Below, in pieces: positions 2,743-63,890 of a stretch of DNA of 64,000 nt; within the stretch, counting starts at the first letter, position 1, and each line of letters begins with the position of its first letter. Position numbers and translations under genes: made by a program. Source of the stretch: Nonlabens arenilitoris (GTDB taxonomy: Bacteria; Bacteroidota; Bacteroidia; Flavobacteriales; Flavobacteriaceae); NCBI RefSeq assembly GCF_002954765.1, contig NZ_MTPW01000001.1:1315501-1379500 (forward strand). The letters run 5' to 3'. A model generated the notes under the pieces. The model made no database searches, was not told the origin of the DNA, and saw only the letters and a list, made by a program, of their open reading frames with translations.

Positions 2743-2758
2743 CGCTTTCGCGAAAGCG
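2743..2758. repeat. Perfect copy of CGCTTTCGCGAAAGCG palindrome
   Basis: Intergenic copy, 3 bases beyond the stop of rpiB and 21 bases before the next gene on the minus strand. No T run follows, so it does not look like a standard intrinsic terminator. Confidence 0.9.
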
Positions 2759-2761
2759 TAC

Positions 2762-3193
2762 TTATGAACATGCTATCTTATTCACACGATTTGCATGGCG
2801 TCCACCTGCAAATTCTGTATCTAAAAAAGTCTCTACCATAGCAATAGCCTGTGGTATAGAAGTGAAACGTGCTGGTATACAGATGATATTTGCATTATTA
2901 TGCTCACGAGCAAGTCCTGCAATTTCTTTAGACCAGCATACTGCGCCACGTACATTTTGATACTTATTAACGGTCATAGAGACACCTTGTGCACTACCAC
3001 AAATAACTACACCTAGATCTGCAGTGTGGTTATCAACATCCTGTCCTACCTTGTGAGCAAAGTCAGGATAATCAACACTATCTAAAGTATCTGTTCCATG
3101 ATTAGTTACTTGATGGCCTCTTTCTTTAAGCATATTAACAATAGCTCGTTTATAATCTGGTCCTGCGTGGTCGTTTCCTATAGAGATGTTCAT
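2762..3193 (-). CDS. rpiB: Ribose-5-phosphate isomerase B
   Basis: A 143-residue RpiB/LacAB-type sugar isomerase that interconverts ribose 5-phosphate and ribulose 5-phosphate in the pentose phosphate pathway. Seen: the N-terminal NDHAGPDYKRAIV segment, the active-site region VVICGSAQGVSMTVNK (residues 62-77, catalytic Cys region) and the late phosphate-binding HANRVNK. The length fits the family (about 145). The CGSAQG form differs from the common CGTGIG but is compatible with a flavobacterial variant. A TAAATTTG promoter element lies 20 bases upstream. It is the first gene to the left of the proposed oriC and is transcribed away from it. Confidence 0.88.
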   Translation of the reverse strand: MNISIGNDHAGPDYKRAIVNMLKERGHQVTNHGTDTLDSVDYPDFAHKVGQDVDNHTADLGVVICGSAQGVSMTVNKYQNVRGAVCWSKEIAGLAREHNNANIICIPARFTSIPQAIAMVETFLDTEFAGGRHANRVNKIACS

Positions 3194-3213
3194 GATAGCG
3201 GTGTTTTATGATA

Positions 3214-3221
3214 CAAATTTA
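3214..3221 (-). promoter_or_regulatory. -7 promoter element for rpiB
   Basis: TAAATTTG on the minus strand matches the Bacteroidota -7 consensus TAnnTTTG and lies 20 bases before the rpiB ATG. I see no clear -33 TTG. Confidence 0.5.
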
Positions 3222-3457
3222 AGTCTAGTTATTGATAATCTAGGGTTATTAACATCCATGGTTTTACACTATTCATAAACAATAGATAACATGTTAATAT
3301 CAATTGAAAGAAAACATTAGGAAGTGAAGGTTTAAAAACTCATATCTATTTAAAATTGAGATAACCAAAATATAACTCACCTTTTTAAGACTAACTTTTC
3401 AGACTTAAAAAGACGTTCATCAACATAAAATATGTAGTTAGTTTATATACATTTTGA

Positions 3458-3691
3458 TGTGAATAAGGGTTGTGAACAACTGTGTATAAACCTATCTTAA
3501 TTACATTAGAAACTTACTTTACAATTAGTTAACATTAGTATAACATGTGAATAAGTAGCGATAAGTTATAAAAAATTCAAGTTCCTAATATTTTAGTAAA
3601 AAGATATACCGCTATTCACACTACATCATCATCATCAATTTTATTTAAATTTTTAAAAAAGAAAAAATGATATTGTTTATAATGTGGATAA
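3458..3691. other. Candidate chromosome replication origin (oriC): DnaA-box cluster
   Basis: Four perfect DnaA boxes (TGTGNATAA, the complement of TTATNCACA) occur at 3458-3466, 3481-3489, 3546-3554 and 3683-3691, all in the same orientation. Near-matches sit at 3471-3479 (TGTGAACAA) and 3612-3620 (CTATTCACA). They lie in a gene-free stretch from 3194 to 3891. An almost pure A/T run around 3637-3682 could be the unwinding element. The flanking genes diverge (rpiB left, rnr right), and two parS-like sites lie 20 kb away. No dnaA gene is in the window, which is not unusual in this phylum. The rest of the gap, 3240-3450 and 3700-3890, is AT-rich with nothing else I can name. Confidence 0.7.
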
Positions 3692-3891
3692 CGTTTAAAA
3701 CTATCTAAAATCAATAAAACGATTTATGAAGGAATTAATAAATCATATATGATCAACTAAGTCGATTAAAATTAAATTTGGAATAATAAATGCAAGCATT
3801 GAAATGATTGCGTGTAATCAATAAAGTAAGTGCGTCACTATTACACTAACTATTGAATAAGGAGTATTGAAAAAGTAATTTTATTTGTAAG

Positions 3892-4062
3892 CTAGACGCT
3901 TGTAGAGGAAGTGTTTTCTATAAGTGGAGAAGTCTCTTCAAAGCTATCAACAGTGTGATCTGTATCTAAAGCTTTATTGATAAAAAGAACTACTAGAATA
4001 ATACCCACAAGAAATATCCCTATGAATAGTAAGGTTGATTTAAGTGGCTTTCTAGTTTCCAT
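3892..4062 (-). CDS. Small single-pass membrane protein
   Basis: A short protein of 56 residues from METRKPLKS, with one strong transmembrane helix (LLFIGIFLVGIILVVLFI) and an acidic, Thr/Ser-rich outer tail (ending ENTSSTSV). I know no family. The frame stays open to a TTG at 4102-4104, but a promoter-like TAACTTTG covers 4102-4109, so translation should start at the Met codons at 4083 or 4062. It is transcribed from between rnr and the proposed oriC, toward oriC. Real expression is not proven. Confidence 0.45.
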   Translation of the reverse strand: METRKPLKSTLLFIGIFLVGIILVVLFINKALDTDHTVDSFEETSPLIENTSSTSV

Positions 4063-4101
4063 TTGTTTAAAATTGTCAACCATTAGACGATCAACAATAC
4101 A

Positions 4102-4109
4102 CAAAGTTA
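4102..4109 (-). promoter_or_regulatory. -7 promoter element for the small membrane protein
   Basis: TAACTTTG on the minus strand fits TAnnTTTG, 40 bases before the ATG at 4062. It overlaps the most upstream possible TTG start and so argues against that start. Confidence 0.4.
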
Positions 4110-4202
4110 CAGTTATTTCTTAAATAATTGTTAATAACGGTATATTAAATGATTAATAATCAAAGTATAAAGTACTTATAATCTCTCAGAGTTTTAAAAG
4201 AT

Positions 4203-4210
4203 TAACTTTG
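4203..4210 (+). promoter_or_regulatory. -7 promoter element for rnr
   Basis: TAACTTTG fits TAnnTTTG and ends 18 bases before the rnr ATG. No convincing -33 TTG is visible. Confidence 0.5.
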
Positions 4211-4228
4211 TAGAAGTATAAATAGAAT

Positions 4229-6427: not shown

Positions 6428-6584
6428 GCATTGTTATACCTGTAAAAAAGAAGATACAGTCATGTATCGCATACAGATTACTAAAGGTAAAGATTGGATT
6501 TTTTGTTGCAAGACCTGTACAGAAAATCACCAGTCTTTACCTTTTTATAAATATGGTGGTACCTGGAAAGGTAAAAGACACTAG
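6417..6584 (+). CDS. Small zinc-ribbon protein
   Basis: A 55-residue reading frame, easily missed because it starts at TTG and overlaps the end of rnr by 11 bases. It carries two Cys pairs, CYTC near the start and CCKTC about 25 residues later, with HQSLPFYKYGGTWKGK at the end. This is the layout of a four-Cys zinc ribbon. I recall similar tiny proteins ending in YGGTWK in other flavobacteria, but no function. It ends 2 bases before the next lipoprotein ATG, so rnr, this gene and the lipoprotein could be one transcript. The start is uncertain; the ATG at codon 16 would remove the first Cys pair and is less likely. Confidence 0.65.
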   Translation: MKTKHCYTCKKEDTVMYRIQITKGKDWIFCCKTCTENHQSLPFYKYGGTWKGKRH

Positions 6585-8117: not shown

Positions 8118-8133
8118 CGCTTTCGCGAAAGCG
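8118..8133. repeat. Perfect copy of CGCTTTCGCGAAAGCG palindrome
   Basis: Intergenic copy, 35 bases downstream of the DUF2807 stop, flanked by A and T to give an 18-bp palindrome (ACGCTTTCGCGAAAGCGT). No T run follows. Confidence 0.9.
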
Positions 8134-13458: not shown

Positions 13459-13474
13459 CGCTTTCGCGAAAGCG
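13459..13474. repeat. Perfect copy of CGCTTTCGCGAAAGCG palindrome
   Basis: Intergenic copy, 26 bases downstream of the glnS stop, again flanked by A and T. Like the copies at 2743 and 8118 it sits just after a gene end. Confidence 0.9.
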
Positions 13475-16330: not shown

Positions 16331-17844
16331 GATAATTTTTCTATGGCATGTTGAATGCGAGCGATAGTTTCATTTTTACCTATCATACTTGCTATCTCAA
16401 AGACATCTGGTCCCATCAAACTACCTACTAATGATAGTCTTAATGGCATCATTACCTTACCAAATCCCATTTCTTGACTAGTTATCCAGCCTTTAATTGC
16501 GTTACTTAAACCAGTTGCGCTATCATCAGTGCAATCCTCGATGATTTTAATCACATCTGTCATTATACTAGTAGTATCATCTTTCCAAGCTTTTTTAGCC
16601 GCTTTTTCATCATAAGAATCAGGTGCGGTAAAGAAAAAACCAGCTAGTTCAAAAAGATCTTCTGTAAATACAGCACGTTCTTTTACTAGACCACAAACTA
16701 TGTTTACATATTCTTGTGATCCATAATCGATACCTTTTTCTTCTAACGCTTTCGCAAAAGCGGCACCTATAACAGCATCATCTTGTGCAACATACCATTG
16801 TTGTTGAAACCATTTTGCTTTTTCTGGGTCATATTTTGCACCAGAACTATTTACCTTTTCTAGACTGAAAGCTTGAACTAATTCTTCAAGGCTGAAAATC
16901 TCTTGTTCTGTACCTGGATTCCATCCTAAGAAAGCCAATATATTGATCATCGTTTCTGGAAGAAAACCATCTTGTTTAAATCCTGTAGAAAGCTCTCCAC
17001 TTTTAGGGTCTTTCCATTCTAATGGGAATACAGAAAAGCCCATTTTATCACCATCGCGCTTACTTAATTTTCCTTTTCCGGTAGGTTTAAGTATTAATGG
17101 TAGGTGAGCAAACTTAGGTCGTTCCCATCCAAAGCTTTCATAAAGCAATACATGTAAAGCCATGCTAGGCAGCCATTCTTCACCACGTATCACGTGAGAA
17201 ATTTTCATATCATGGTCATCTACCACATTAGCAAGGTGGTAAGTAGGCATCCCATCACTTTTAAATAGTACTTTGTCATCGATAAGTGAGGTGTCTATTT
17301 CAATCCCTTTACGAATTTCATCAAACATGTGTAATGTTTTCAACTCTGGCTTAAAACGGATTACATAATCATCTCCTCTTGCGATACGTTCTTCAACCTC
17401 ACTACTTGTTAAGGTTAGAGAATTGGTAAAATCGTTACGATTGTTATGATTGTATATAAAAGTTTCCTTTTTTGCTTCTGCATTTTCACGAGCCGTTTGC
17501 AATTCTTGTGCAGTATCAAATGCATAATAGGCGGCACCTTTTTCTATAAGGTCTAGCGCATATTGTTTATACATTGATTTACGTTCACTTTGTCTATAAG
17601 GTCCGCAGTCTCCTTCTTTTCCTGGTCCTTCATCATATGGAATATGACACCAGTTTAAGGCATCAATAATATAATCTTCGGCACCTTCTACATACCTATT
17701 TTGATCAGTATCTTCAATACGTAATACAAAAATACCATTGTGTTTTTTTGCAAATAAATAATTGAACAATGCTGTTCTAACACCACCTATATGTAATGGT
17801 CCGGTTGGACTAGGTGCAAATCTTACTCTAACTGGAGTGCTCAT
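16327..17844 (-). CDS. gltX: Glutamyl-tRNA synthetase
   Basis: A class I aminoacyl-tRNA synthetase of 505 residues that charges tRNA-Glu. Seen: RFAPSPTGPLHIGGVRTALFN (HIGH-type motif, residues 8-28), the AIRGEEWLPS-type segment (HVIRGEEWLPS) in the catalytic domain, and KLSKRDG (KMSKS-type, about 260). The C-terminal part is the helical anticodon-binding domain. Near residue 363 the peptide AAFAKALEEKG is encoded by a one-mismatch copy of the genome palindrome. It is tail-to-tail with the outer-membrane protein gene and likely monocistronic. Confidence 0.96.
   Translation of the reverse strand: MSTPVRVRFAPSPTGPLHIGGVRTALFNYLFAKKHNGIFVLRIEDTDQNRYVEGAEDYIIDALNWCHIPYDEGPGKEGDCGPYRQSERKSMYKQYALDLIEKGAAYYAFDTAQELQTARENAEAKKETFIYNHNNRNDFTNSLTLTSSEVEERIARGDDYVIRFKPELKTLHMFDEIRKGIEIDTSLIDDKVLFKSDGMPTYHLANVVDDHDMKISHVIRGEEWLPSMALHVLLYESFGWERPKFAHLPLILKPTGKGKLSKRDGDKMGFSVFPLEWKDPKSGELSTGFKQDGFLPETMINILAFLGWNPGTEQEIFSLEELVQAFSLEKVNSSGAKYDPEKAKWFQQQWYVAQDDAVIGAAFAKALEEKGIDYGSQEYVNIVCGLVKERAVFTEDLFELAGFFFTAPDSYDEKAAKKAWKDDTTSIMTDVIKIIEDCTDDSATGLSNAIKGWITSQEMGFGKVMMPLRLSLVGSLMGPDVFEIASMIGKNETIARIQHAIEKLS
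16747..16762. repeat. Palindrome copy, one mismatch, inside gltX
   Basis: CGCTTTCGCAAAAGCG, one base from the consensus. On the gltX strand it encodes AFAKA. Confidence 0.75.
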
Positions 17845-19143: not shown

Positions 19144-22100
19144 ATGAATAACTTTCAAATAATAGAGCACAAGCTCAAACTTTTTATTAAAAAATATTAC
19201 ACAAATGAGATCATTCGTGGTATTATTTTATTTCTAGCGATAGGATTATTGTACTTTCTATTTACTGCCGTTATCGAGCATTTTTTATGGTTGAGTTCGA
19301 CAGGTAGAACAATTTTATTTGGCCTTTTTGTTTTAGTACAGGCAACATTATTGTTTAAATTTATTGGTATCCCATTAGCGAGGCTGTTCAAATTATTTTC
19401 AGGAATTGATTTTAGAGATGCCAGTAATATGATTGGAACTCATTTTCCTGAAGTATCAGATAAATTAATCAATGTATTACAATTACATAAAAACGGTGGA
19501 GATGATGAGCTTACTTGGGCCAGTATTAATCAAAAAAGTGAAGAGCTTAAACCTATTCCTTTTTCTCTTGCTATTGATTTTAAAAAAAATACTGCATATT
19601 TAAAGTATTTAGCCATACCTGTACTCATCATTGCAGTCTTATTTTTTACGGGTAATAATGATGTAATCACTGAAAGCACAAAACGTGTTGCTAATTTTAA
19701 TAATGAGTATATCCCGCCAGCACCATTTACTTTTACACTGCTTAATGATGATTTAAATACATTACAAAAAAGAGACTTTAAACTTAATGTTGATGTTTCT
19801 GGGAGGACTATTCCAGAGAACGCAAGTATCCATTTTAATGATCAAACTTATTATCTAACTCAAGAAGCTCCTGGTAGATTTAGTTTTATATTCAATAACC
19901 CTTCTGTAAACACACCGTTTTATCTCAAGGCTAACGAGGTAAGGAGTGAAGAATTTGAGTTAAAGGTAGATGCAGTTCCTTCCATAAATAAGTTTGAACT
20001 ATTTATAGATTATCCATCTTACACTGGTAAAAAAGATGAAATTATTAAAAGTACCGGTAATGCTTTGGTTCCACAGGGAACTAAAATAACTTGGAGATTA
20101 CAGACCGTTGCTACAGATCGCGTTGAATTTAAATCGAGTAATGCTGTAGAATCTTTCCAAAAGGATGATAATGAATTCGCTTTCGCGAAAGCGATATTAA
20201 AACCACTTAAATATGCAATTTCAACTTCAAATATAAATGCTAGGGATTATGAAGAATTAAACTTTAAAATAGATGTTACTAAGGATGACTACCCAGAGTT
20301 AACCATGGAAATGAAGAAAGATAGTATTCAGGAAGATATTCTTCACTTCAGAGGACAAGTCGCAGATGATTATGGGATTAAAAAAATACAACTTGTCTAT
20401 TATGAGAGTGATAGTAATACTAATCGACAGATCTATGAGATAGGTAAAAACCGTGGAACATTTGATCAGTTCTTATTTACTTTTCCTGATAACCTACCTT
20501 TAACAGGTGGTAAAAACTATCAATTTTATTTTGAAGTAATTGATAATGACGCTGTTAATAATTTTAAAAGTTCAAAAAGTCAAGTTTACGGGTTTAAAAA
20601 ATCTACTAAGAAGGAAGAAGAACAACTACAACTACAAGATCAAAAGAAATCATTAGAAGAATTAGAAAAGTCATTAAAGGAACAGGATAAACAGCAAGAA
20701 GAACTAAAAGAAATTAGTCAAGAACAAATTGAAAAAAAGCAACGAGGTTTTAATGATAAGAAAAAATTAGAACAAGCACTTAAAAATCAACAAGAACAAG
20801 AACGTGAAATGCGTCAGCAAATGGAAAAAATGAGGGATAACTTAGAAAAGTCTAATCCTCAAAAAGATCCTATGAAAGAGGCTTTAAAAGAACGTTTACA
20901 GCAAAGTGAAGAAGAGATTAAGAAAAATGAAGAGCTTCTTAAAGAACTGCAAGAATATCAAGATAAGTTGAGTAAAGAGGATTTAAAAGAAAAACTAGAA
21001 AAAGCTCAGAAGAATTCAAAACAACAAAAGCGTAATCTCAAACAACTGTTAGAGCTCACAAAGATGTATTATGTGACCCAAAAGTATGAGCAAATGATTA
21101 ATAAGCTTAAGGATTTATCTACTAAACAAGAAGAGCAATCTAAAAAGAAAGGTGACGATAATAAGAAGGTTGATCAAGATTCTTTAAATCAAGAATATAA
21201 AGATTGGGAAAAGGAATTACAGGAACTGGAGAAAGAAAATAACGGTCTTAAAAAACCTATGAAGTTGGATTTTGATCCACTTAATTCTCCTGAGATTAAG
21301 GAAGAACAACAACAGTCTAGTGAATATCTTGAGAATTCTAAAACTCCGGAAGCTAGTAAAAAGCAAAAAAGTGCAGCAGATAAAATGAGACAGCAAGCTC
21401 AAGCTATGCAAGCTCAAATGAGTTCTGGTAAATCAGAAAAAATGAAAGAAGATGCTGACATGTTGCGTCAGATATTAGATAATCTGATTGTGTTTTCAAA
21501 AGAACAAGAAAACGTTCTTAATGGTGTTAAGAGTCTAAATAGAAATAGTCCAAATTTTGGTAAAAAACTTAAAATCCAGAAGGATTTAGAAAGAGCTTTT
21601 AAACATGTTGATGATAGTTTATTTGCCCTTGCATCACGTAATCCCGAGGTTGGTATTGATATTAATAGAGAAGTTACTGATATTTACTATTATATAGATA
21701 AATCTTTGACTCAACTTAGTGATTTTGAGATGGATAAAGGTCAGATTTCACAACAATTTACTCTTAATGGTGCTAATAAGCTCGCTAACATGCTTAGTAG
21801 TGTAATGGATGCGATGAATAATGCTATGGCATTACCTGGTAAAGGTGAAGGAGAACCTGGTGAAGGACAAAGTTCTGGTTTTCAATTACCAGATATTATA
21901 AAAAAACAAGAATCCTTAATGAAGGAAGGTGATCAAGGTGAAGAAGGCGCTAATGGTGAAAAGCCTGGTAAAGGTGATGGCAAAAAACCTGGTGATGGTC
22001 AGCCTGGTGATTCTGGTCCACCTGGACAAGGTGGGAAGAATGGTCAGGAAGGTCAATCTGGTGAAGGTGGTGAATCCGGACAAGGTGGCCAAAGTGGGCA

Positions 22101-22692: not shown

Positions 22693-23098
22693 TTATCAAT
22701 TTAATTTTGAATTATCTAAGGAGTTGGATTATTCAAAATGGTTGGAAGCTGTAGCTGTTTCTGAGCAAAAATCTATAGGTGATCTATCTTATGTATTCTG
22801 TACTGATGATTTTCTTTTAGAATTAAATAAGAAGTATCTAGATCATGATACATTAACAGATATCATCACATTCGACTATTGTGATGATTACTTAATTCAT
22901 GGAGAAATTTATATTTCAGTGGATAGGGTAAAGGATAATGCTAAGGATTTTAATGTAACTTTTAATGATGAGTTATTAAGAGTTATGGTGCATGGACTTC
23001 TTCATTTATGTGGCTATGGAGATAAGTCAGATTTTGAAAAGAGTTATATGCGTTCTAAGGAGAATGAAAAAATTAAAATGTTTCACGTGAAACAATAG
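22679..23098 (+). CDS. ybeY: Endoribonuclease YbeY
   Basis: A 139-residue metal-dependent endoribonuclease of rRNA maturation and ribosome quality control. The motif HGLLHLCGYGDK (about 103-114) holds the zinc-binding His pair; the third metal-site His of many homologues (GYDH) is replaced, as is usual in Bacteroidota. DTLTDIITFDYCDD matches the conserved N-terminal part of the fold. The start overlaps the end of the DUF4175 gene by 14 bases, and it ends 2 bases before mnmG, so all three are co-transcribed. Its last codons (FHVKQ) are written by a parS-like site. Confidence 0.93.
   Translation: MVDFNYQFNFELSKELDYSKWLEAVAVSEQKSIGDLSYVFCTDDFLLELNKKYLDHDTLTDIITFDYCDDYLIHGEIYISVDRVKDNAKDFNVTFNDELLRVMVHGLLHLCGYGDKSDFEKSYMRSKENEKIKMFHVKQ
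23079..23094. other. parS-like centromere site 1
   Basis: TGTTTCACGTGAAACA is a perfect 16-bp palindrome that matches the known ParB/Spo0J-binding consensus TGTTNCACGTGAAACA at every position. It lies in the last codons of ybeY, just before mnmG. ParB spreading from such sites segregates chromosome origins. No parA or parB gene is in the window. Confidence 0.85.
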
Positions 23099-27634: not shown

Positions 27635-28819
27635 ATGAAGACGATTAACGATATCAATTTTAAGGATAAAAAAGCCCTAGTAAGAGTAGACTTTAATGTA
27701 CCTCTCAATGATAATTTTGAAGTGACAGATACCACTCGTATCCACGCAGCAAAAGATACCATCATTAAAATATTAGAAGATGAAGGATCTGTCATATTAA
27801 TGTCACATCTAGGTCGTCCTAAAGGAAATCAAGAGGAATTTTCATTAAAGCATATTGTAGCAGCAGCTACAGATATCTTAGGTGTACAAGTTAAATTTGT
27901 CGAAGATTGTATAGGTGATGCTGCTCAACAAGCAGCTGCAAATTTGCAACCTTGTGAGGTTTTATTGTTAGAAAACCTAAGGTTTTATAGTGAAGAAACT
28001 GCTGGTGATGCCTCTTTCGCGAAAGCGTTATCTCAATTAGGTAACGTTTATGTAAACGACGCATTTGGTACCGCACATAGAGCACATGCTTCTACAGCAA
28101 TAATTGCTCAATATTTTGATGAAAAATGCTTTGGTCACTTAATGACAAGAGAGATTGAGAGCTTGAATAAAGTGCTGGAAACTCCAGATAAACCAGTTGT
28201 GGCTATTTTAGGAGGCGCAAAAGTTTCATCAAAAATTACCGTTATTGAGAATATACTGGATAAGGTAGATGATCTTATTATCGCAGGTGGTATGGCATAC
28301 ACTTTTATTAAAGCACAAGGTGGAAAGATAGGAGACTCTCTTTGCGAAGATGATAAAATGGAACTAGCACTTGAAATACTTGAAAAAGCCAAATCAAAAA
28401 ATACAAATATACATTTACCAGTAGACGCTATCACTGCCGATGCCTTTTCTGAACATGCAACTATAGATAATGCGGCTATAGATGCTATACCTAACGGTTG
28501 GATGGGATTAGATATAGGAGAAAAATCTAGATCACAATTTCATACAGTATTAATGCAGGCCAAAACCATCTTGTGGAATGGTCCAGCAGGTGTTTTTGAA
28601 TTAGAGCCTTTTTCACATGGAACAATTTCTCTAGGAAAATCTGTCGCTGCGTCTACTGCAGCAGGAGCATTTTCTTTAGTAGGTGGTGGTGACTCAGTTG
28701 CAGCAGTAAAGCAATTTGGTTTTGATAATCAAGTAAGTTATGTCTCAACCGGTGGTGGTGCCATGCTAGAAATGCTAGAAGGTAAAACTCTACCTGGTAT
28801 AGCCGCTATATTAGATTAA
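27635..28819 (+). CDS. pgk: Phosphoglycerate kinase
   Basis: A 394-residue glycolytic enzyme that transfers phosphate from 1,3-bisphosphoglycerate to ADP. Seen: RVDFNVPL (substrate loop, residues about 18-25), SHLGRPKG (about 58-65), [21 protein letters not shown], the hinge region [12 protein letters not shown] (about 190-201), and the ATP-binding [13 protein letters not shown] near 350. An upstream in-frame ATG at 27590 lies in the promoter; the ATG at 27635 gives the normal start ([16 protein letters not shown]). A near-copy of the genome palindrome encodes ASFAKALSQ near residue 128. Confidence 0.97.
28012..28027. repeat. Palindrome copy, one mismatch, inside pgk
   Basis: CTCTTTCGCGAAAGCG, one base from consensus, encoding SFAKA. 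Confidence 0.7.
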
Positions 28820-39080: not shown

Positions 39081-39613
39081 TTGTAAAAGAAACTCCGTTA
39101 AAAGACTGCTATATCATCGAGCCACCTGTTTTCGGTGATGATCGCGGTTATTTCAGTATTAGACACGATAAATACGCTTTCGCAAAAGCGTTTCCTAACC
39201 ATCCACCATTTGTATTACATAACGAGTCCTTTTCAAGCTATGGAGTGCTACGTGGTTTACATCTACAAAAAGGAGATGCTGCTCAAGCAAAGCTAGTGCG
39301 TTGCGTACAAGGTAAAATTCTTGATGTAGCAGTAGATTACAGACCAGATTCTCCATCCTTTTTAAAACATTTCACCATTGAATTAAGTGGTGATAATCAT
39401 AAACAACTTTTAGTTCCTAGAGGATTCCTGCATGGCTTTTCTGTCCTTTCAGATATAGCAATCGTTAATTATCAAGTAGATAACACTTACCAACCAGAGA
39501 CTGAATTTGGGATACGATATGACGACCCAACGTTAAATATAGATTGGCAATTACCAGATAGTGCTGTTTTACTATCTGAAAAAGATGAAAAATTAGATTT
39601 TTTAAAATTATAA
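39077..39613 (+). CDS. rfbC: dTDP-4-dehydrorhamnose 3,5-epimerase
   Basis: A 178-residue cupin-fold epimerase, third step of dTDP-rhamnose synthesis. Seen: the N-terminal [33 protein letters not shown] (about 55-75, active-site His in LHLQ), [13 protein letters not shown], and the late [15 protein letters not shown]. It carries a one-mismatch copy of the genome palindrome at 39175-39190, encoding YAFAKAFPN. It is followed by a 31-base gap that holds a dispersed repeat before rfbD. Confidence 0.95.
39175..39190. repeat. Palindrome copy, one mismatch, inside rfbC
   Basis: CGCTTTCGCAAAAGCG, the same variant as in gltX, encoding AFAKA. Confidence 0.75.
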
Positions 39614-39644: not shown

Positions 39645-40502
39645 ATGTTTGACAAATACAAACCCTTGAAAAAAATTCTCATTACAGGAGCAAACGGTAT
39701 GTTAGCTACAGCGATCAAAAACGCTTTATCTGGTTGTGAAGTTTATGCATTTTCAAGTCAAGAATTAGACATCACCTGTTCACAAAGCTTACATAAAAAT
39801 ATAGCAACCATTCTGCCTGATTACATTATTAATTGCGCCGCTTACACAGCCGTAGATCTTGCAGAAACCGAAGAGGAAAAAGCCTTTAAAATAAATGCAC
39901 TTGCAGTTGAGAAAATGGCTCAAATTGCTGAGCAATATCGCGCGACTTTGATACATTTTTCTACAGATTACGTTTTTGATGGAAATGTTTCTAAGCCATA
40001 TGCGGTAGATCATCCTACTCGTCCAGTAAATATTTATGGTGCGAGTAAGTTAGCTGGAGAAAAAGCCATTACTCAAGTAAATGCTAAACATTACATTTTT
40101 AGAATCTCATGGCTCTATGCACCATATGGTAAGAACTTTTTTAATTGGATTGCAGAAACTGATTTGGAAGAGTTAAGCATAGTAAACACACAAACCGGTT
40201 CTCCTACCAGCGCACTAGATGTAGCAGATTTTATGAACCACTTGATTCATAATGACCCTAAAAACTATGGAACCTATCACTTCACCAATCAAGGAGAAAT
40301 GACGTGGTACGCTTTCGCGAAAGCGATAAATCAAAAATTAGATTTAAATAAAACGATCAATCCAGTTGCCACTTTTAAAACCGCTGCAAAACGACCTACT
40401 TACAGTGCGATGGATTGTAAAAAAACAGAACAGGTTTTCAATTATTTAACTCCATCTATTAGCGATGGATTAGATAGGGTAGTGGCTAGGTATAAGTCTT
40501 AA
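39645..40502 (+). CDS. rfbD: dTDP-4-dehydrorhamnose reductase
   Basis: A 285-residue reductase that makes dTDP-L-rhamnose, the last step of the pathway. Seen: [20 protein letters not shown] (nucleotide-binding), [23 protein letters not shown] and YGASKLAGE (catalytic Tyr/Lys), then [15 protein letters not shown]. The start is uncertain: ATG at 39645 adds MFDKYKP, while TTG at 39666 gives the standard start. The extra residues are next to the repeat at 39621 and may reflect its insertion. A perfect palindrome copy encodes YAFAKAINQ near residue 223. Confidence 0.94.
40310..40325. repeat. Perfect palindrome copy inside rfbD
   Basis: CGCTTTCGCGAAAGCG read as AFAKA. Confidence 0.9.
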
Positions 40503-41972: not shown

Positions 41973-43013
41973 ATGAATAAAGATTCAAAAATATACGTCG
42001 CAGGACATCGTGGTCTTGTAGGAAGCGCCATCGTTAGTGAGTTAAAAAAATTAGGTTACACAAATTTTGTTCTTAAAACTCACAAAGAGCTAGACCTTAC
42101 AAATCAACAAGCCACAGCAGACTTTTTTGTAACTGAAAAACCAGAATTCGTCTTTCTTGCAGCGGCGAGTGTAGGTGGTATCGTAGCAAACAACACTTAC
42201 AGGGCAGATTTTATCTATAAAAATCTCATGATTCAAAATAACGTGATCCATCACAGTTATTTGAATGGTGTGAAAAAGTTATTGTTTCTAGGAAGTACCT
42301 GTATCTATCCCAAAATGGCACCACAACCTATGCCAGAGGACAGTTTACTCACCGGTCCACTAGAATATACTAATGAACCTTATGCGGTAGCAAAAATCGC
42401 TGGGATCAAAATGTGTGAGAGCTATAACTTGCAATATGGCACCAATTTTATCTCTGTAATGCCTACTAATTTATATGGTCCTAACGATAATTTTGATTTA
42501 GAGAAATCACATGTACTGCCAGCGCTAATTCGTAAAATGCACCTAGGTAAATTATTAATGGATGGTAATGAGCAGGCATTAATGGATGATTTAGGTGTTG
42601 ATGATATCGCTTTCGCGAAAGCAGAATTACAAAAACACGGTATCACAGAAAATGGCATCGCTTTATGGGGAACTGGCTCACCAAAGCGAGAGTTTCTATG
42701 GTCACATGACATGGCAAAAGCCTGTGTGTACTTGATGGAAAACAAAGACTTTGCTGATGTAAAAGGAAGCGAAAAAGACATAAGAAATACACACCTCAAT
42801 ATAGGAACCGGAGAAGATATCGCTATAAAAGACCTCGCAGAACTGATTAAAAAAACGGTAGGTTATGAAGGAAAGCTAGATTGGGATGCTACAAAACCTG
42901 ACGGCACACCACGTAAGCTTACAGATGTGTCAAAACTGCATGAATTAGGTTGGAAACACGAGGTAAATCTAGAAAAAGGTGTGGAGATGATGTATGAAGC
43001 TTATATGAAATAA
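41973..43013 (+). CDS. fcl: GDP-L-fucose synthase
   Basis: A 346-residue epimerase/reductase that makes GDP-L-fucose from the product of Gmd. Seen: [33 protein letters not shown] (about 65-78), [18 protein letters not shown], and [18 protein letters not shown] (Tyr/Lys), then [21 protein letters not shown] at 41973 is preferred to a GTG at 41961. An insert at about 195-222 is usual in Bacteroidota Fcl; the palindrome copy (IAFAKAELQ) lies in this tolerant segment. It ends 9 bases before the MBOAT gene. Confidence 0.96.
42608..42623. repeat. Palindrome copy, one mismatch, inside fcl
   Basis: CGCTTTCGCGAAAGCA, last base changed, encoding AFAKA. Confidence 0.75.
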
Positions 43014-48054: not shown

Positions 48055-49117
48055 TGGGTAAACTAGTTGTCATACAAACAGTAATTCCAGCTTATAGAAT
48101 CAAGGTATTTGATAAAATAAGTACAGAGTTGGGTGATGATTTTACTCTTTATGGAGGACAGTTTTTTTTGACAAAACGATTGCTACCACCACACAATCTA
48201 AACTTCATCAACATATAAATAACCATTACTTACTGGGTCGTAGGTTGTTGTGGCAAACTGGATTTTGGAAAGAAGTTTTTAAGGATAACGTGCTCGTACT
48301 TAGTTTAAATCCACGAGTTCTTTCACATTGGGTGATATTGTTATTGAGATCGCTTTCGCGAAAGCGAACTATACTATGGGGACACGCATGGCCACGATCT
48401 GGACAGAAATCAAAATCAGATAATTTACGTCATCTCATGAGATCACTTGCTAGTGAGATCATAGTTTATACAGAACAACAAAAGGAAGAACTTAAACTTA
48501 AAATGCCACAGAAAAAGATTACAGCAGCACCTAATGCGGTTCTTTTTAAAAATGAAATGTCGTGTGACACTGCTACTGAGGTCAATGACATTATTTATGT
48601 TGGTCGTTTAATTGCAGATAAGAAACCGCTCTTACTTTATCACGGTTTCAAGAAAGTTCTTAAAGAACTTCCAGAAGCTACCAAACTGGTAATTATAGGC
48701 AATGGACCAGAACGTGCAAAATTGCTTGAATTAAGTAAAAAAGATGGTATTGAACATAGAGTGTTCATTCCTGGAGAGGTTACTAAGGCGAGTTTACTCA
48801 AGGAGTATTATAAAAAGTCTCTTGTAAGCGCATCTCCTGGTTATGTAGGTTTAAGTATAACGCAAAGTCTAGGTTATGGAGTGCCTATGATTATAGCACG
48901 TGATGAAAATCATAGTCCAGAGTTAGAAGCGGTAAAAGATGGTTTTAATGCAAAATTTTTTAATTCAAATGATGAAGATAGTCTTGCTCAAGGTCTTATT
49001 TCATTTTTTGAAAATAAAGAAAAGTGGTTGAAGCTTAGAAAAGAAATAGTTGAGGATTGTAGTATTAGATACTCTATAGAGGCTATGACAGCAACATTTA
49101 TTAATTTACTTAAATAA
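48054..49117 (+). pseudogene. Glycosyltransferase family 4, frameshifted
   Basis: The gene begins at ATG 48054 (MGKLVVIQTVIPAYRIKVFD) but that frame stops at about 48216. The rest continues in another frame (DKTIATTTQSKLHQH, then LLWQTGFWKEV). Adding one T to the eight-T run at 48162-48169 restores one protein of about 354 residues. The C-terminal half has IIYVGRLIADKKPLLLYHGF, VIIGNGPERAKLLELSKKDG and LVSASPGYVGLSITQSLGYG, the donor-sugar domain of GT-B enzymes. It would add one sugar to the repeat unit. It may be a phase-off state, a pseudogene or a base-calling error. It contains a perfect palindrome (LSRKR). Confidence 0.75.
48351..48366. repeat. Perfect palindrome copy inside the GT4 gene
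   Basis: CGCTTTCGCGAAAGCG read in a different frame, giving SLSRKRT. Confidence 0.9.
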
Positions 49118-53490: not shown

Positions 53491-54708
53491 TTGAAAGGAA
53501 AACACATTACATTCATAGGGCTCAACTATGCGCCAGAAGACACAGCCATAGGTCTGTATTCTACTCAAATGGTAGAAGCACTCACAAGTGCTGGCGCAAC
53601 CGTAAATGTCGTTACAGCCTTTCCTTATTATCCGCAGTGGAAAATAGCGCAAGCCTATAAAGACCAGCCCAATTATCTTCAAGAAGAATATAAAGGCGCA
53701 AAACTCTACCGTTATAAGCAGTATGTGCCAGAAACGCCTACTTTTTTAAAACGCATCATTCATATTTTGAGTTTTACTAAAGGAAGTTTTTTCAATCTTA
53801 GAAAGATTAAAGAAGCAGATCTAGTCATTTCTATTATTCCGTTTACGTCCAGTGCATGGCTTGCAGGATATCATGCAAGAACTCACAAAGCAAAAAGTTG
53901 GATTCACATACAGGATTTTGAATTTGATGCCGCATTACAATCGGGTTTGTCTAGTGGTGGAAAAAAGTTGATTTTCAAGTATCTTTTTGGTCTTGAAAAA
54001 CGCATTTTAAATAAGGCAAACACGATTAGTACCATAAGTCATAATATGATTGCAAAACTGGAATCCAAAACCAGCCAGCCACATTATTACTTGCCTAACT
54101 GGATTGATGAAAATCAAGTAAACCCAGCGACTGCAAAGCAGCATTCTTACTTACGCAGTGATAAATTTAAATTGCTTTATAGTGGTAATGTAGGAGATAA
54201 GCAAGATTGGGATTTTTTCTCCGCTTTCGCGAAAGCGTTACCAACACAACATTATGACATTATCATCGTAGGTGCTGGAGCAAAATACCAGAAGTTAAAG
54301 GATACTACAAACCAAGAAAATATTCACTTTTACGATCCAGTTCCTTTTGAAGAACTCTCAGATTTACTGTGTAGTGCTGATGCGCATTTTTTGTTTCAAA
54401 AAACCGAAGTGCTCGATACTGTAATGCCGTCTAAACTGTTAGGCATGATGGCTAGCGAGAAGCCTTCTCTAGTTTTAGGAAATGCAAAGTCTGAAGTAAA
54501 ACAGGTGATGGAACTTGCAAATGCAGGTTGCTATCTCACTACTGCAAATGTTGAAACTGCCGTCAATCAATTAGAAAACTGGCGATTAAATCAAGAAGCA
54601 AGATTGCAAATAGGAAAAGAAGCAAGGTGTTATGTAACGCAACATTTTGCACGCAAACCTATATTAGACAATTGGGTAGATCAACTCACAGCATTACTGG
54701 ACAGCTAG
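53491..54708 (+). CDS. WcaI-like glycosyltransferase family 4
   Basis: A 405-residue GT-B glycosyltransferase, similar to colanic-acid WcaI. Seen: HITFIGLNYAPEDTAIGLYS at the start, FPYYPQWKI, SWIHIQDFEFDAAL, and the donor-half KFKLLYSGNVGDKQDWDFF plus VLDTVMPSKLLGMMASEKPSL (about 308-328). The start is TTG at 53491, 2 bases after the acetyltransferase, which is plausible by spacing. WcaF- and WcaI-type proteins being adjacent supports a common repeat-unit step. A perfect palindrome copy encodes SAFAKALPT near residue 246. Confidence 0.9.
   Translation: MKGKHITFIGLNYAPEDTAIGLYSTQMVEALTSAGATVNVVTAFPYYPQWKIAQAYKDQPNYLQEEYKGAKLYRYKQYVPETPTFLKRIIHILSFTKGSFFNLRKIKEADLVISIIPFTSSAWLAGYHARTHKAKSWIHIQDFEFDAALQSGLSSGGKKLIFKYLFGLEKRILNKANTISTISHNMIAKLESKTSQPHYYLPNWIDENQVNPATAKQHSYLRSDKFKLLYSGNVGDKQDWDFFSAFAKALPTQHYDIIIVGAGAKYQKLKDTTNQENIHFYDPVPFEELSDLLCSADAHFLFQKTEVLDTVMPSKLLGMMASEKPSLVLGNAKSEVKQVMELANAGCYLTTANVETAVNQLENWRLNQEARLQIGKEARCYVTQHFARKPILDNWVDQLTALLDS
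54222..54237. repeat. Perfect palindrome copy inside the WcaI-like gene
   Basis: CGCTTTCGCGAAAGCG read as AFAKA, close to the start of the donor-sugar domain. Confidence 0.9.
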
Positions 54709-58358: not shown

Positions 58359-59653
58359 TCCACTTCGCTCATAAATTGTTTCAATTTCCCACGATTACTG
58401 CGGTCTAAAGAATCTAATCTGGTAAAAATTACTTCAAGTCCTGGTTCTAGATATTGATCCATTGCGGCTTGAACTTGGGTTTTTTGTGATGCATCCATAT
58501 CTGTTTTACTCACATATTGAATTTCAAAAGATGTTTCTGCTTTTTGAATGATTATAAATTCTAGTATGTTGACATCTTCATTGATAATCGATTTTGTAAC
58601 ATAATAAAAGGTCAATCCAGGAACGACTTTACCACTAGGTAATCTTGCGATATCACTGGTACGACCTTGTAGATTTTCTAGAATTCTGGTACCATTTTCT
58701 AGTGTTTTTAAACTTCCTAAATCGCCTATTTCATAGCGTATCATAGGATGTGCTAGGTTATATAAATCGGTAACGAGTATACGACCTATTATTCCATCTG
58801 TAACTGGTTGATTAGCATCATCGACTATTTCTATAAATAGATTTTGCTGGTTCAGAACAAATTCTCCTTGTTGATTTTCCATAGCGATTAATCCTACCTC
58901 GCTAGCTCCATATTCATTCACAATGGGAACACCTATCCATTTTTCAAGCAATTTGCGATCATCTGCAAAAAGCATTTCACTGGTTACGATACATATTTTT
59001 AGACTTGGGCAGTAGGTTTTGAGAGTTGTACCTTTCTCACGACAGTATTTTGCTAGTAGTACGATACTGCTGGTATAACCGTTGAGGTATTCGTATTCGC
59101 TTTCGCGAAAGCGTGATACATACTTCTTTAATATCGCGTCATTTAAATTGAAAATAGGAAACCTTTTGCGATTGCTCACATAGTCTTTAAGGAGTTCTAC
59201 ATATTTACCTTTTCCACTCAATGGTATCCCATAAAAACGAGCCTGTAAAGACGTGTTGAGGTCAATGTCATGTTCATTATAGGCATGATGAAATGCAGCC
59301 CAGGTAATCGCGTGTGCAAACTTATCTTTTGCATAAGTAAAAGGATGACCGCTAGAACCACTGGTTTTTCCTTTAAAAACGTTTTTTGAGCTGTAGTCGT
59401 TACTTAATCTTTCATGAAGTGGTTGCTGTAAATCTCTTTTAGTAAGTACTGGAAGCTTTGCCCAGTCAGTAGATTTGTTTTCTAATAGATTTATATAGAA
59501 GTTGTTATGCTTTAAATGATGTTGTACAATTGCCTTCTTTTGTTGTTCTATAGATTCATCAGTGTTACTTAATAATTGCTTAAAACGAGATTTGGCTTCC
59601 TGAATAGGGAAACCTTGCCATCTTAATATGTTGTCAAAAAGTTGTAGTGGCAT
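58355..59653 (-). CDS. CapK/PaaK-like adenylate-forming enzyme
   Basis: A 432-residue protein similar to phenylacetate-CoA ligase and capsule-locus CapK proteins. Seen: FKGKTSGSSGHPFTYAKDKFA (ATP-binding P-loop, about 92-112), VNEYGASEVGLIAMENQQG (about 238-256) and ATP/adenylate-binding VTDLYNLAHPMIRYEIGDLG (about 300-319). Such proteins in polysaccharide loci are thought to activate or transfer an acid onto a sugar; the exact reaction is unknown. ATG at 59651-59653 is chosen, since the farther one at 59710 lies in the shared divergent promoter with purD. It holds a perfect palindrome (RFRESEY). Confidence 0.8.
   Translation of the reverse strand: MPLQLFDNILRWQGFPIQEAKSRFKQLLSNTDESIEQQKKAIVQHHLKHNNFYINLLENKSTDWAKLPVLTKRDLQQPLHERLSNDYSSKNVFKGKTSGSSGHPFTYAKDKFAHAITWAAFHHAYNEHDIDLNTSLQARFYGIPLSGKGKYVELLKDYVSNRKRFPIFNLNDAILKKYVSRFRESEYEYLNGYTSSIVLLAKYCREKGTTLKTYCPSLKICIVTSEMLFADDRKLLEKWIGVPIVNEYGASEVGLIAMENQQGEFVLNQQNLFIEIVDDANQPVTDGIIGRILVTDLYNLAHPMIRYEIGDLGSLKTLENGTRILENLQGRTSDIARLPSGKVVPGLTFYYVTKSIINEDVNILEFIIIQKAETSFEIQYVSKTDMDASQKTQVQAAMDQYLEPGLEVIFTRLDSLDRSNRGKLKQFMSEVD
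59098..59113. repeat. Perfect palindrome copy inside the CapK-like gene
   Basis: CGCTTTCGCGAAAGCG read on the minus strand in the third frame, giving RFRES. Confidence 0.9.
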
Positions 59654-61286: not shown

Positions 61287-62198
61287 ATGCTTTCTACTTT
61301 TTTTAGTACTTCTAGACCTGTTCACTATTTGATGGTGTTCATTATAGTAGTCTTGACGGTATTAATTACAATATTATGGGATCCACAAAGACAATGGTGG
61401 GAACTTATTGCTATACTAATTTTGTCGGGAAGCCTTGCTCTAGTTGAATTTATTGTGTCTAAAAACGATTTAACACCTTCATCCAGTTATGTGTTGTGGT
61501 GTGCTACAATTTTATCACTTACTTATCTTGCATTTAAAGTACCGCTGCATATTATGGTTGCATTGTTCTTTGTTCTGCTAGCAATTCGTCGTTTATTGAG
61601 TCTTAAAACAGGACATTCAATTATAAAAAAGATTTTTGACGCTACCTTTTGGATAGCTATAGCGACCGTCTTTTATCATTGGAGCGCCTTATTATATCTC
61701 TTGGTTTTTGTTTCTATATTTCTTTATGTGCGCAATGACTTCAGGCACTGGGCGACACCATTTATTGCATTGGGTTGTGTATGGGTTTTATTATTTACCT
61801 ATGATTATGTGTGGGATAACCACGTCATTTCTTCGTTATGGGACTTATATAAATCTTCATATTTATGGGAGTATACAGTATTTCAAAGTCAAGAAATTAT
61901 CTTGTTTTTTCTGATTATTTTTTCTGTGTTTGGACTATTTATTTACTTGACAAAGCTCATTGATATACAGCAAAGTGTGCGACCACGATTTACTATTATG
62001 ACATTTATGGGTTTATGTGGTATTGCTTTATTTTTAATCGATTTTGAATCATTCTGTAATGGTGGATATTTATTTCTCATATTACCACTAAGTGTATTTA
62101 TCGCAAGAGCAGTGCACGCAATAAATCATAAAATATTTAAAGAAATTCTTCTTTGGATTCCTGTTTTACTGCTGTTGGGCAGTTTTTTACTGTATTAA
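61287..62198 (+). CDS. Integral membrane protein, DUF6427-like
   Basis: A 303-residue protein with about nine or ten hydrophobic helices, starting MLSTFFSTSRPVHYLMVF. I recall this as the flavobacterial DUF6427 family, usually next to the small DUF6341 gene and purD or upp as here. There is no transporter or enzyme motif I can name. It is divergent from the DUF6341-like gene, with only 46 bases between their starts. Confidence 0.7.
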   Translation: MLSTFFSTSRPVHYLMVFIIVVLTVLITILWDPQRQWWELIAILILSGSLALVEFIVSKNDLTPSSSYVLWCATILSLTYLAFKVPLHIMVALFFVLLAIRRLLSLKTGHSIIKKIFDATFWIAIATVFYHWSALLYLLVFVSIFLYVRNDFRHWATPFIALGCVWVLLFTYDYVWDNHVISSLWDLYKSSYLWEYTVFQSQEIILFFLIIFSVFGLFIYLTKLIDIQQSVRPRFTIMTFMGLCGIALFLIDFESFCNGGYLFLILPLSVFIARAVHAINHKIFKEILLWIPVLLLLGSFLLY

Positions 62199-62227
62199 AT
62201 CAAACCCTAAAATTGACTAAAGAGACT

Positions 62228-62235
62228 TATATTTG
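62228..62235 (+). promoter_or_regulatory. -7 promoter element for the DUF4254 gene
   Basis: TATATTTG, 19 bases before the ATG at 62255; fits TAnnTTTG exactly. Confidence 0.5.
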
Positions 62236-62254
62236 TATCTTAAAATAACAAATT

Positions 62255-62863
62255 ATGTTCTCAGATAAAGCCAATGCTATTTTTCAAAAAGTCATCGATG
62301 TTTACCACGTTGTAAATACAGTTGATCAACCTTTTGAAAATGCATATGATCGTAATACAGATCTTATAGAGCACTTATTATATCGCAAGTGTTGGATTGA
62401 TACGGTACAATGGCATTATGAAGATATCATCCGTGATCCTAACATTGATCCAGTTGCAGCACTAACTTTAAAACGTCAGATAGATGCTAGTAATCAAGAT
62501 CGTACAGATATGGTCGAGTATGTAGATAGTTATTTTTTAGATAAATATGCAGATGTTACCGTTAAGGATAACGCCACTATTAATACAGAAAGTCCTGCAT
62601 GGGCAATTGATAGATTATCTATCCTAGCCTTAAAGATTTATCACATGAATGAAGAGGCAACACGTACAGATGCTTCTCAATCACATATTGATGCCTGTCA
62701 GAAAAAATTAGACATTTTATTAGAACAACGTATTGATCTTTCTACTGCTCTAGATCAATTGTTAGAAGACATCGCGCATGGTCGTAAATACATGAAAGTG
62801 TATAAGCAAATGAAGATGTATAATGATGATGAGCTTAATCCAGTATTGAGAGCACGTAAATAA
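62255..62863 (+). CDS. DUF4254 protein
   Basis: A 202-residue soluble, helical protein of the Bacteroidota DUF4254 family. Seen: LLYRKCWIDTVQWHYEDIIRDPNIDP (about 42-67), LKRQIDASNQDRTDMVEYVD and SPAWAIDRLSILALKIYHMNEE. Function is unknown. In many genomes it lies directly beside a GT9 heptosyltransferase-like gene, as here (1-base gap), which suggests a shared role in envelope sugar assembly. That is inference from gene order. Confidence 0.85.
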   Translation: MFSDKANAIFQKVIDVYHVVNTVDQPFENAYDRNTDLIEHLLYRKCWIDTVQWHYEDIIRDPNIDPVAALTLKRQIDASNQDRTDMVEYVDSYFLDKYADVTVKDNATINTESPAWAIDRLSILALKIYHMNEEATRTDASQSHIDACQKKLDILLEQRIDLSTALDQLLEDIAHGRKYMKVYKQMKMYNDDELNPVLRARK

Positions 62864-62864
62864 T

Positions 62865-63890
62865 ATGGCCTTACCGCAACGCATTATCGTTATCAGGCTC
62901 AGTGCCATGGGTGACGTGGCTATGTGTGTGCCTGTTTTACTTGCTTTGCAAAGAGATTATCCCAGTGTTGAGGTGATCACGCTTTCGCGAAAGCGATTTA
63001 AACCCATCTTATCACAAATACCTAACGTTACGTTTATAGAAGCTCAAGTAGACGATATACACAAAGGAATTCCCGGTTTGTGGAAACTAGCGAAAGAATT
63101 GAAAGAACTTCAACCACAAGCTATTGCAGATTTTCATAATGTGTTACGCACTAAAATGTTGCGTATATTTATGATGGGAATACCTAACGCTGTTATTAAT
63201 AAAGGTCGCGCAGAAAAAAAGCAATTAATTGATAACTCATCATTTTTTAAACCTCTTAAACATAGTACAGAGCGATATGCAGATGTATTGCGAGATCTAG
63301 GTTTTGAAATTCATTTAAAACAAGACGAGTTTCTTCTAAAAAGATCCATTTCTGCTCAAATACTTGAAAAAGTAGGCAAAAATTCTTCTAATTGGATAGG
63401 TTTTGCACCATTTGCTGCACATCGTACTAAGGCTGTAGGTCTAGAAAAAGCTACTGAAATTGCTCAAAAGGTTGCTGCAATGTCTAACGTCAATTTATTA
63501 TTATTTGGTGGTGGCAAAAAAGAAACCAGTGATCTAGCTCAAATGGCAAGCAGTGCAGATAATATTATCTCAATAGCAGGTAATTTAGATTTTGAAGAAG
63601 AGCTCAGTCTTATTTCAAATCTCGATGCTATGATTGCTATGGATAGTGGTAATGGTCACCTAGCAGCGATGTATGGTGTTCCTGTTATTACCCTATGGGG
63701 AAACACACATCCATATGCTGGTTTTGCACCTTATGCGCAGCCTATACAACGTCAACTTACTGTTAATAGAATAACTTATCCATTAGTTCCTACTTCTATT
63801 TTTGGTAATCAATTAGTGGACGGCTATGAAGATATTACTGATTCTATAGAGACTTCTCGCATTCTAGAAGAGTTGAAGAAGTTGTTGTAG
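62865..63890 (+). CDS. Glycosyltransferase family 9 (heptosyltransferase-like)
   Basis: A 341-residue GT-B enzyme of family 9 that adds ADP-heptose or a related sugar in lipopolysaccharide core synthesis. Seen: RIIVIRLSAMGDVAMCVPVLLAL (4-26), IADFHNVLRTKMLRIFMM, SSNWIGFAPFAAHRTKAVGLEKA (donor domain start) and DAMIAMDSGNGHLAAMYGVPVITLWGNTHP (about 254-283), the GT9 donor-binding block. It starts 1 base after DUF4254. A perfect palindrome (TLSRKRF) lies near residue 41. Confidence 0.93.
   Translation: MALPQRIIVIRLSAMGDVAMCVPVLLALQRDYPSVEVITLSRKRFKPILSQIPNVTFIEAQVDDIHKGIPGLWKLAKELKELQPQAIADFHNVLRTKMLRIFMMGIPNAVINKGRAEKKQLIDNSSFFKPLKHSTERYADVLRDLGFEIHLKQDEFLLKRSISAQILEKVGKNSSNWIGFAPFAAHRTKAVGLEKATEIAQKVAAMSNVNLLLFGGGKKETSDLAQMASSADNIISIAGNLDFEEELSLISNLDAMIAMDSGNGHLAAMYGVPVITLWGNTHPYAGFAPYAQPIQRQLTVNRITYPLVPTSIFGNQLVDGYEDITDSIETSRILEELKKLL
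62980..62995. repeat. Perfect palindrome copy inside the GT9 gene
   Basis: CGCTTTCGCGAAAGCG read in the frame giving LSRKR, in the acceptor domain. Confidence 0.9.

Follow-up and report, generated by a model that had tools for sequence, protein, structure and literature searches.

We analyzed a 64,000-nucleotide stretch of Nonlabens arenilitoris DNA (here called the window), which corresponds to positions 1315501 to 1379500 of contig C1 in a genome of 3,323,003 bases and three contigs (the source genome, G000). The glutaminyl-tRNA synthetase (GlnRS) encoded in the window shares 99% identity with that of Nonlabens ulvanivorans, which places the organism in Nonlabens. A 16-bp palindrome, identical to its own reverse complement, occurs there in 15 copies, nine of them exact, four with one mismatch, and two with two mismatches. 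Table 1 lists these copies with the genes around them, together with a canonical parS site that is not part of the repeat. An earlier, sequence-only reading of this DNA had reported nine perfect and six near copies, and all 15 were recovered at the same positions, including the closest pair (39175 and 40310, 1.1 kb apart) and the widest gap (from 20178 to 28012, 7.8 kb). It had also described a GC-rich word in an AT-rich genome. Indeed, 10 of the 16 bases are G or C in a window of 33.8% GC. All 11 occurrences of the octamer TTCGCGAA in the window fall within CTTTCGCGAAAG.

Table 1. Palindrome copies and the parS site in the window, with their surroundings
Feature	Position	Strand	Context
Exact palindrome	2743..2758	.	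Intergenic, 3 bp beyond end of minus-strand open reading frame (ORF) 2762-3193
Exact palindrome	8118..8133	.	Intergenic, between ORFs 7372-8082 and 8208-8951
Exact palindrome	13459..13474	.	Intergenic, 26 bp beyond GlnRS gene 11723-13432
One-mismatch copy CGCTTTCGCAAAAGCG	16747..16762	.	Within GluRS gene 16327-17844 (minus); encodes AFAKA
Exact palindrome	20178..20193	.	Within DUF4175 gene 19141-22692; encodes AFAKA
Canonical parS TGTTTCACGTGAAACA	23079..23094	.	Beside mnmG
One-mismatch copy CTCTTTCGCGAAAGCG	28012..28027	.	Within phosphoglycerate kinase gene 27590-28819
Two-mismatch copy	30022..30037	.	Within SLT/LysM gene 28835-30412
Two-mismatch copy	35460..35475	.	Within DUF6909 gene 34371-36098
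One-mismatch copy	39175..39190	.	Within dTDP-sugar isomerase gene 39077-39613
Exact palindrome	40310..40325	.	Within RmlD-like gene 39645-40502
One-mismatch copy	42608..42623	.	Within epimerase gene 41961-43013
Exact palindrome	48351..48366	.	Within glycosyltransferase gene 48245-49117
Exact palindrome	54222..54237	.	Within glycosyltransferase gene 53491-54708
Exact palindrome	59098..59113	.	Within ORF 58355-59710 (minus), for which a Pfam search gave no family
Exact palindrome	62980..62995	.	Within heptosyltransferase-like gene 62865-63890

The palindrome is repeated throughout the genome. The source genome (3.32 Mb) contains 439 exact copies, one per 7.6 kb, and fewer than 0.001 were expected (scaled from a Markov estimate for 444 kb). 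The reversed word, used as a control, had no copy. In 444 kb of this genome, 53 exact copies were counted versus 2e-6 to 1.4e-5 predicted by first- to fourth-order Markov models, and no match was obtained in 100 dinucleotide shuffles of the window. The statement that chance alone should not produce such a 16-base word was thus borne out. The sequence-only reading had tied its proposal of an evenly spread, genome-wide signal to the comparison of the whole-genome count with a Markov model and to the presence of copies outside the window. The proposal withstood both, since the count exceeds the expectation by far and copies were found genome-wide and in relatives, in 23 of 23 Nonlabens genomes, with few neighbors closer than 2.5 kb (see below).

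The mean density stays level along the source genome, where the first 100 sites (12.9 to 767 kb) have a mean spacing of 7.62 kb, compared with 7.57 kb genome-wide. Twenty evenly spaced 20-kb stretches round the chromosome contained one to four copies each (47 in total), and none was empty. In these 20 stretches no origin-terminus gradient was detected, with 11 copies in the five nearest to parS and 10 in the five nearest to the antipode. A 44-kb accessory stretch with polysaccharide genes had no exact copy. Contigs C2 (13.3 kb) and C3 (9.6 kb) contained four exact copies and one, respectively. The idea that they are plasmids was dropped; both bear chromosomal-type genes, and C2 was unmatched in a plasmid collection. 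Their copy density is therefore uninformative on plasmids. On C2 (L214, 13 kb), similar genes (Paa, sulfate permease, and 3-hydroxyacyl-CoA dehydrogenase) are paired in opposite orientation, possibly an assembly artefact.

All 23 Nonlabens genomes searched bear the palindrome in 180 to 737 copies (255 to 737 in the near-complete ones), as do all 18 Dokdonia genomes (138 to 711 copies). The single genome of a further genus (G211) has 153. In a sample of 397 genomes of the family, any copy was found in 48, namely, four Nonlabens, G211, the Dokdonia genome G227 (630 copies), and 42 others with 1 to 13. In a sample of 296 genomes of the phylum, nine had a copy, and none except the source genome had more than two. 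Around one gene, 80 named loci were compared: 12 of 12 Nonlabens loci contained one to five exact copies, and in the remaining 68 (1.35 Mb) no copy was found even with two mismatches allowed.

Neighboring copies keep a distance from each other. Spacing was tested on the first 94 to 100 listed sites per genome. When 294 listed sites from three genomes were pooled, pairs in successive 500-bp bins numbered 0, 5, 9, 15, and 17, versus approximately 25.9 expected in each, and the expectation was attained at 2.5 kb. In the source genome, 1 of 99 gaps was shorter than 1 kb (12.2 expected) and 4 were shorter than 2 kb (22.9 expected). The corresponding counts were 2 (16.5) and 11 (29.7) among 93 gaps in G001, 2 (18.6) and 14 (33.8) among 99 gaps in G416, and 0 (5.2) and 3 (10.1) among 99 gaps in G211. 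The coefficient of variation of the spacing alone was significant in G000 and G211 and not in G001 and G416. The same avoidance holds between one-mismatch and exact copies (2 pairs below 1 kb versus 13.9 expected, some of the stretches being orthologous), and the one-mismatch copies thus seem to be working members of the set. In Nonlabens stretches, a 1.7-fold excess was seen at a spacing of 3 to 4 kb, some of these stretches being orthologous and hence non-independent.

The sequence-only reading had also held that the copies cross unrelated genes and are not a mobile array, and both points were supported. For placement, genes were taken to be open frames of 100 codons or more, picked by length, so that very short genes counted as intergenic. 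Among 53 copies, 22 were intergenic, although only 11.8% of the bases are (3.5-fold enrichment), and these were found between convergent, codirectional, and divergent genes. The 31 genic copies read as AFAKA (20), RFRES (7), or LSRKR (4).

The sites are strongly conserved. Of 17 copies that could be aligned across nine diverged Nonlabens, 13 were identical, versus 0.52 expected from all aligned 16-mers (only aligned copies were counted; unaligned ones were dropped). The copy at 2743 was identical in four of five alignable Nonlabens loci, with L122 set aside as the last base is unaligned there, and in the 12 named Nonlabens loci the GluRS copy was exact in 7 and the DUF4175 copy in 10. In N. 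xiamenensis, the copy corresponding to 13459 shows a symmetric double change, CGATTTCGCGAAATCG (a single case). At the GluRS site, AFAKA is encoded in 12 of 12 Nonlabens and in none of 63 other rows of the alignment; at the DUF4175 site, it is encoded in 11 of 12 Nonlabens and in none of 50 other rows. Hence, the DNA word dictates the protein sequence at these two places. Non-bearers (genomes in which the palindrome is not repeated) align mostly without gaps near the sites, with 6 of 63 rows gapped at GluRS and 0 of 50 at DUF4175, which shows that the word arose there by substitution and not by insertion. The palindrome seems to owe its retention to the DNA sequence itself and not to the genes that it crosses.

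The signal extends beyond the 16-mer. Over 78 exact copies, the 5' flank was C-poor to position -18, with T at -2, -9, and -12 and G at -14/-15, and this pattern was mirrored on the 3' side. The symmetric T/G-rich and A/C-rich flanks stretch the signal to approximately 50 bp. The same pattern was present in Dokdonia (26 copies), G001 (36 copies), and the named Nonlabens loci (51 copies), and weakly in G211 (17 copies). The flank arms were no more complementary than shuffled arms, which argues against an extended hairpin and for a putative symmetric binding signal. The 18 one-mismatch copies deviate at the outermost base in 12 cases, at position 6 in three, and at position 7 in three. The ratio of one-mismatch to exact copies in the 20 sampled stretches was 18/47 = 0.38.

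In a tree of 51 GlnRS sequences, the bearers split into two sets: Nonlabens (support 100/100) on the one hand and Dokdonia plus G211 on the other, the latter pairing being weak (85/42). None of 200 bootstrap trees of this single gene joined the two sets, and non-bearers, for example, Patiriisocius and Aequorivita, were closer to Nonlabens. The places of the word differ as well. One alignment column of comEC holds it in all eight Dokdonia examined (seven exact, one with a mismatch) and in G211, and in none of six Nonlabens and none of three non-bearers. Conversely, neither G227 nor G211 uses the word at the positions that it occupies in GluRS and DUF4175 of Nonlabens. These different places indicate that the same 16-mer accumulated separately, which would point to a reader with fixed specificity.

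Genomes with few copies show another distribution. We mapped four of them: all 12 copies lie within 75 kb in G097, 9 of 13 within 59 kb and 3 more within 10 kb in G307, 9 of 11 on one contig in G072 (an 88% complete assembly), and 5 of 6 within 10 kb in G415. Furthermore, one copy with nearly identical flanks is common to six genomes of six genera (G099, G033, G305, G165, G329, and G122). In the only such stretch that was annotated (L203, from G099), this copy is located in an RND efflux gene adjoining P-type ATPase, multicopper oxidase, and HlyD/CusB-like genes. The copies in low-copy genomes appear to represent DNA that a bearer passed on. As a related observation, a metal-resistance cluster with the palindrome at the same places was seen in L201 to L213 (L203 annotated), from several Flavobacteriaceae genera otherwise without the palindrome.

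The palindrome was also searched for in viruses. In the 71 kb of the two isolated Nonlabens phages, P12024L and P12024S, none was found even when three mismatches were allowed. In a collection of 2.9 million viral contigs, the word was present in 41 stretches from 30 contigs, those of 58 to 67% GC possibly by chance. Four stretches were scanned for phage genes, which were found in L110 (tape measure, major head, and portal), L085 (integrase and tape measure), and L096 (portal), and L117 gave a baseplate-hub match. In four viral stretches (L094, L097, L098, and L110, from IMG/VR), an exact and a one-mismatch copy are retained at a distance of 4,480 bp.

How can these properties be explained? 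We favor the view, to which we assign a probability of roughly 0.4, that the copies are a genome-wide self-DNA label working in analogy to uptake sequences. One sequence-specific DNA-binding protein with two-fold symmetry would recognize the palindrome together with its symmetric flanks. Fragments bearing a copy would be preferentially taken up or recombined among relatives, and a site-bearing allele would therefore spread. Since a second copy in the same fragment would gain nothing, copies would settle in permissive places beyond one fragment length, which may be roughly 1 to 2.5 kb. The sequence-only reading had named a binding site, a methylation mark, and an uptake or recombination signal without choosing among them; of these, an uptake-like label is retained, as is the chromosome-organizing site discussed below.

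The label is favored because fragment-scale spacing, conservation, apparently permissive placement, one-off share, and AT-rich flanks match the traits of uptake sequences. The spacing of Neisseria uptake sequences matches the size of conversion fragments, the sites are stringently conserved and are located in permissive parts of the core genome, and the ratios of 1-off to exact sites are 0.25 to 0.43 (PMC2397512, Table 1). AT-rich flanks matter for the Haemophilus uptake signal (PMC7811141). In Riemerella columbina, placed by its authors in Flavobacteriaceae, self-DNA preference was described, and natural competence is not universal in that group (PMC7965970). The comEC gene was full-length in 41 of 42 bearers and partial in the 42nd, and the two isolated Nonlabens phages lack the palindrome.

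Several points weigh against a label of this kind. The comEC gene was also present in seven of eight non-bearers, and we found no published report of uptake or transformation of Nonlabens or Dokdonia. Some true phage contigs, at least one of them with an integrase, bear the palindrome at near-host density. Known uptake sequences are shorter and non-palindromic, and we know of no candidate uptake receptor in Bacteroidota. Perfect symmetry is more suggestive of a dimeric binder than of an uptake receptor. Finally, the exclusion zone is explained just as well by any site that is made redundant by its neighbors.

The strongest rival to the label is a role in chromosome organization. A dedicated dimeric nucleoid protein would bind the approximately 50-bp site and anchor, loop, or load something every few kilobases; if one site serves 2 to 3 kb, nearer sites are redundant. 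We keep this rival, although we consider it unlikely, because of the perfect two-fold symmetry of core and flanks, the quasi-regular spacing with its excess at 3 to 4 kb in Nonlabens stretches, the copies in all 20 stretches round the chromosome, and the copies in phage contigs. The phage copies as such do not favor either reading. Both readings would involve one dimeric reader and redundancy of near neighbors. What speaks against chromosome organization is the lack of origin or terminus bias (11 versus 10 copies), which the sites of Noc, SlmA, and MatP show, along with the variation from 255 to 737 copies among near-complete genomes of one genus and the tolerance of the 44-kb accessory stretch without an exact copy.

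The known segregation systems were considered in this context. The consensus behind the parS call at 23079 is the one that we take to be canonical. Weaker parS-like copies are located at 24971 (two mismatches) and 28609 (three mismatches), and the window is probably near the origin. The parS-like sites lie round mnmG, and parB is found very nearly at the opposite point of the chromosome (G000:C1:2988967). The separate parS shows that the ParB site of this chromosome is a word different from the palindrome. Exactly one PF02195 match was found in each of 10 bearers searched; among 10 non-bearers, eight had one and two had two. In a ParB alignment inspected by eye, no helix-turn-helix residue separated bearers from non-bearers. 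The palindrome as parS was ruled out by the separate canonical site, the hundreds of copies, their even density in the sample, and the single ParB. Noc was rejected, as a second ParB-family protein was absent in 10 of 10 bearers, which also counts against chromosome organization more generally. A macrodomain site of the Noc, SlmA, or MatP type was rejected for want of a terminus bias in the 20 stretches (11 versus 10 copies per 100 kb). Thus, from the nucleoid- or segregation-protein site proposed in the sequence-only reading, the parS kind falls and a chromosome-organizing site survives as the rival described above.

Less probable still is a mechanism like that of HIP1, in which a methylase and a linked repair activity would create and maintain the palindrome. 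The prevalence of changes at the outermost position (12 of 18 one-mismatch copies) would fit, since HIP1 is a GC-rich iterated palindrome with one-base deviations at its ends (PMC4390886). However, TCGCGA outside the palindrome is neither enriched nor avoided (28 occurrences versus 25 to 39 expected), which also weakens an explanation by restriction avoidance of TCGCGA. Among 17 bearers, no methylase common to all was found in PF01555 or PF00145, the two families searched, and four (G009, G418, G421, and G422) had no match above cut-off in either. The methylation mark of the sequence-only reading is weakened to the extent that it calls for a common methylase of these families. In addition, a HIP1-like mechanism predicts neither the T/G- and A/C-rich flanks nor the 2.5-kb exclusion.

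A Chi-like recombination hotspot, recognized on the DNA by a recombination nuclease, would agree with the conservation and with a density of one per 5 to 8 kb, similar to that of Chi in Escherichia coli. Known Chi sites, however, are short and directional, whereas a palindrome has no direction, and Chi is not known to show an exclusion over 2.5 kb, so that we regard this recombination signal as very improbable. An RNA or transcription element (terminator, hairpin, or regulator site) could make use of the intergenic enrichment and of the 6-pair hairpin into which the 16-mer can fold, but it is largely refuted by the 31 of 53 copies inside genes, the intergenic copies in every gene orientation, the lack of arm complementarity beyond shuffled arms, the fold z-scores of six copies (+0.20 to -2.47), and the absence of palindrome copies from all 17 terminator-like sites in window positions 1 to 20000. 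A mobile or inserted repeat (REP/RAYT or transposon ends) would account for many dispersed copies but is refuted for the two genes tested by the mostly ungapped alignments, and the flanks of 78 listed copies are unique apart from their biased base composition.

Other iterated words were also looked for. In the 68 non-bearer loci of approximately 20 kb, no other iterated palindrome of this kind was detected, at low power. A candidate in Flavobacterium dankookense proved to be a tandem array, and CACGTGGAAC in Flavobacterium resembles what we take to be parS, as expected near the origin. In Patiriisocius (L148, L162, L063, L064, L225, and L285), the non-palindromic word CTTCGGAAAT occurs 16 times in 105 kb versus 0.54 expected. 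This weak candidate may be a different label in a genus that is near Nonlabens and does not have the palindrome as a genome-wide repeat. In the window itself, AGATTGGG occurs 10 times versus 0.46 expected.

Taken more broadly, it is an even bet that Nonlabens and Dokdonia have a previously undescribed chromosome-marking system. One dimeric protein would read a symmetric site of approximately 50 bp in a quasi-lattice with an exclusion of approximately 2.5 kb, and the same 16-bp code would have accumulated independently in two non-sister lineages, the specificity of the reader being ancient or transferred. In the literature searched, which lay mostly outside subscription journals, the 16-mer itself did not occur, the matches listed for palindromes in Nonlabens or Dokdonia and for iterated palindromes or uptake sequences in Flavobacteria included no description of it, and the inner 10-mer appeared only in 10 papers whose titles and abstract openings were unrelated. 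Judged by this literature, such a system would be the first code of this type known from Bacteroidota and, among known self-DNA labels, the first to consist of a long perfect palindrome.

Only a few groups of bacteria are known to have dispersed words that serve gene exchange or chromosome layout. The word described here is long, perfectly symmetric, and set out with a sharp exclusion distance, and it was present in all searched genomes of two marine genera, which include the cultured strains Dokdonia 4H-3-7-5, PRO95, and Dokd-P16. It makes testable both self-DNA recognition in Flavobacteriaceae and the question of what organizes their chromosomes, and it would tag DNA that has moved from Nonlabens or Dokdonia into other genera.

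Among known systems, ParB/parS and Noc sites are similar in being palindromes of 14 to 16 bp with TTTC/GAAA half-sites, which are also those of the Noc site. Unlike them, the palindrome is present in hundreds of copies with no origin or terminus bias in the sample, next to a separate parS at 23079 and a single ParB. As the sequence-only reading had remarked, the word differs in sequence from HIP1 and the known uptake sequences. It shares with HIP1 of cyanobacteria the iteration of a GC-rich palindrome whose end positions are the most variable (PMC4390886), but in contrast to HIP1 (GCGATCGC) it has another sequence, is twice as long and much sparser, shows a clear exclusion zone, and is accompanied by no common methylase of the two families tested. 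From the DNA uptake sequences (DUS) of Neisseriaceae and the uptake signal sequences (USS) of Pasteurellaceae, it differs as a 16-bp perfect palindrome with symmetric flanks that is 3- to 8-fold sparser and occurs in Bacteroidota; its genic share (31 of 53) is higher than the 34 to 42% in Neisseria. Compared with what is described for DUS and USS (PMC2397512, PMC7811141, and PMC7371117), it resembles both in genome-wide iteration, kilobase spacing, stringent conservation, a similar one-off share, limitation to a genus with recognizable foreign islands, and intergenic and apparently permissive placement, and it has AT-rich flanks as in USS.

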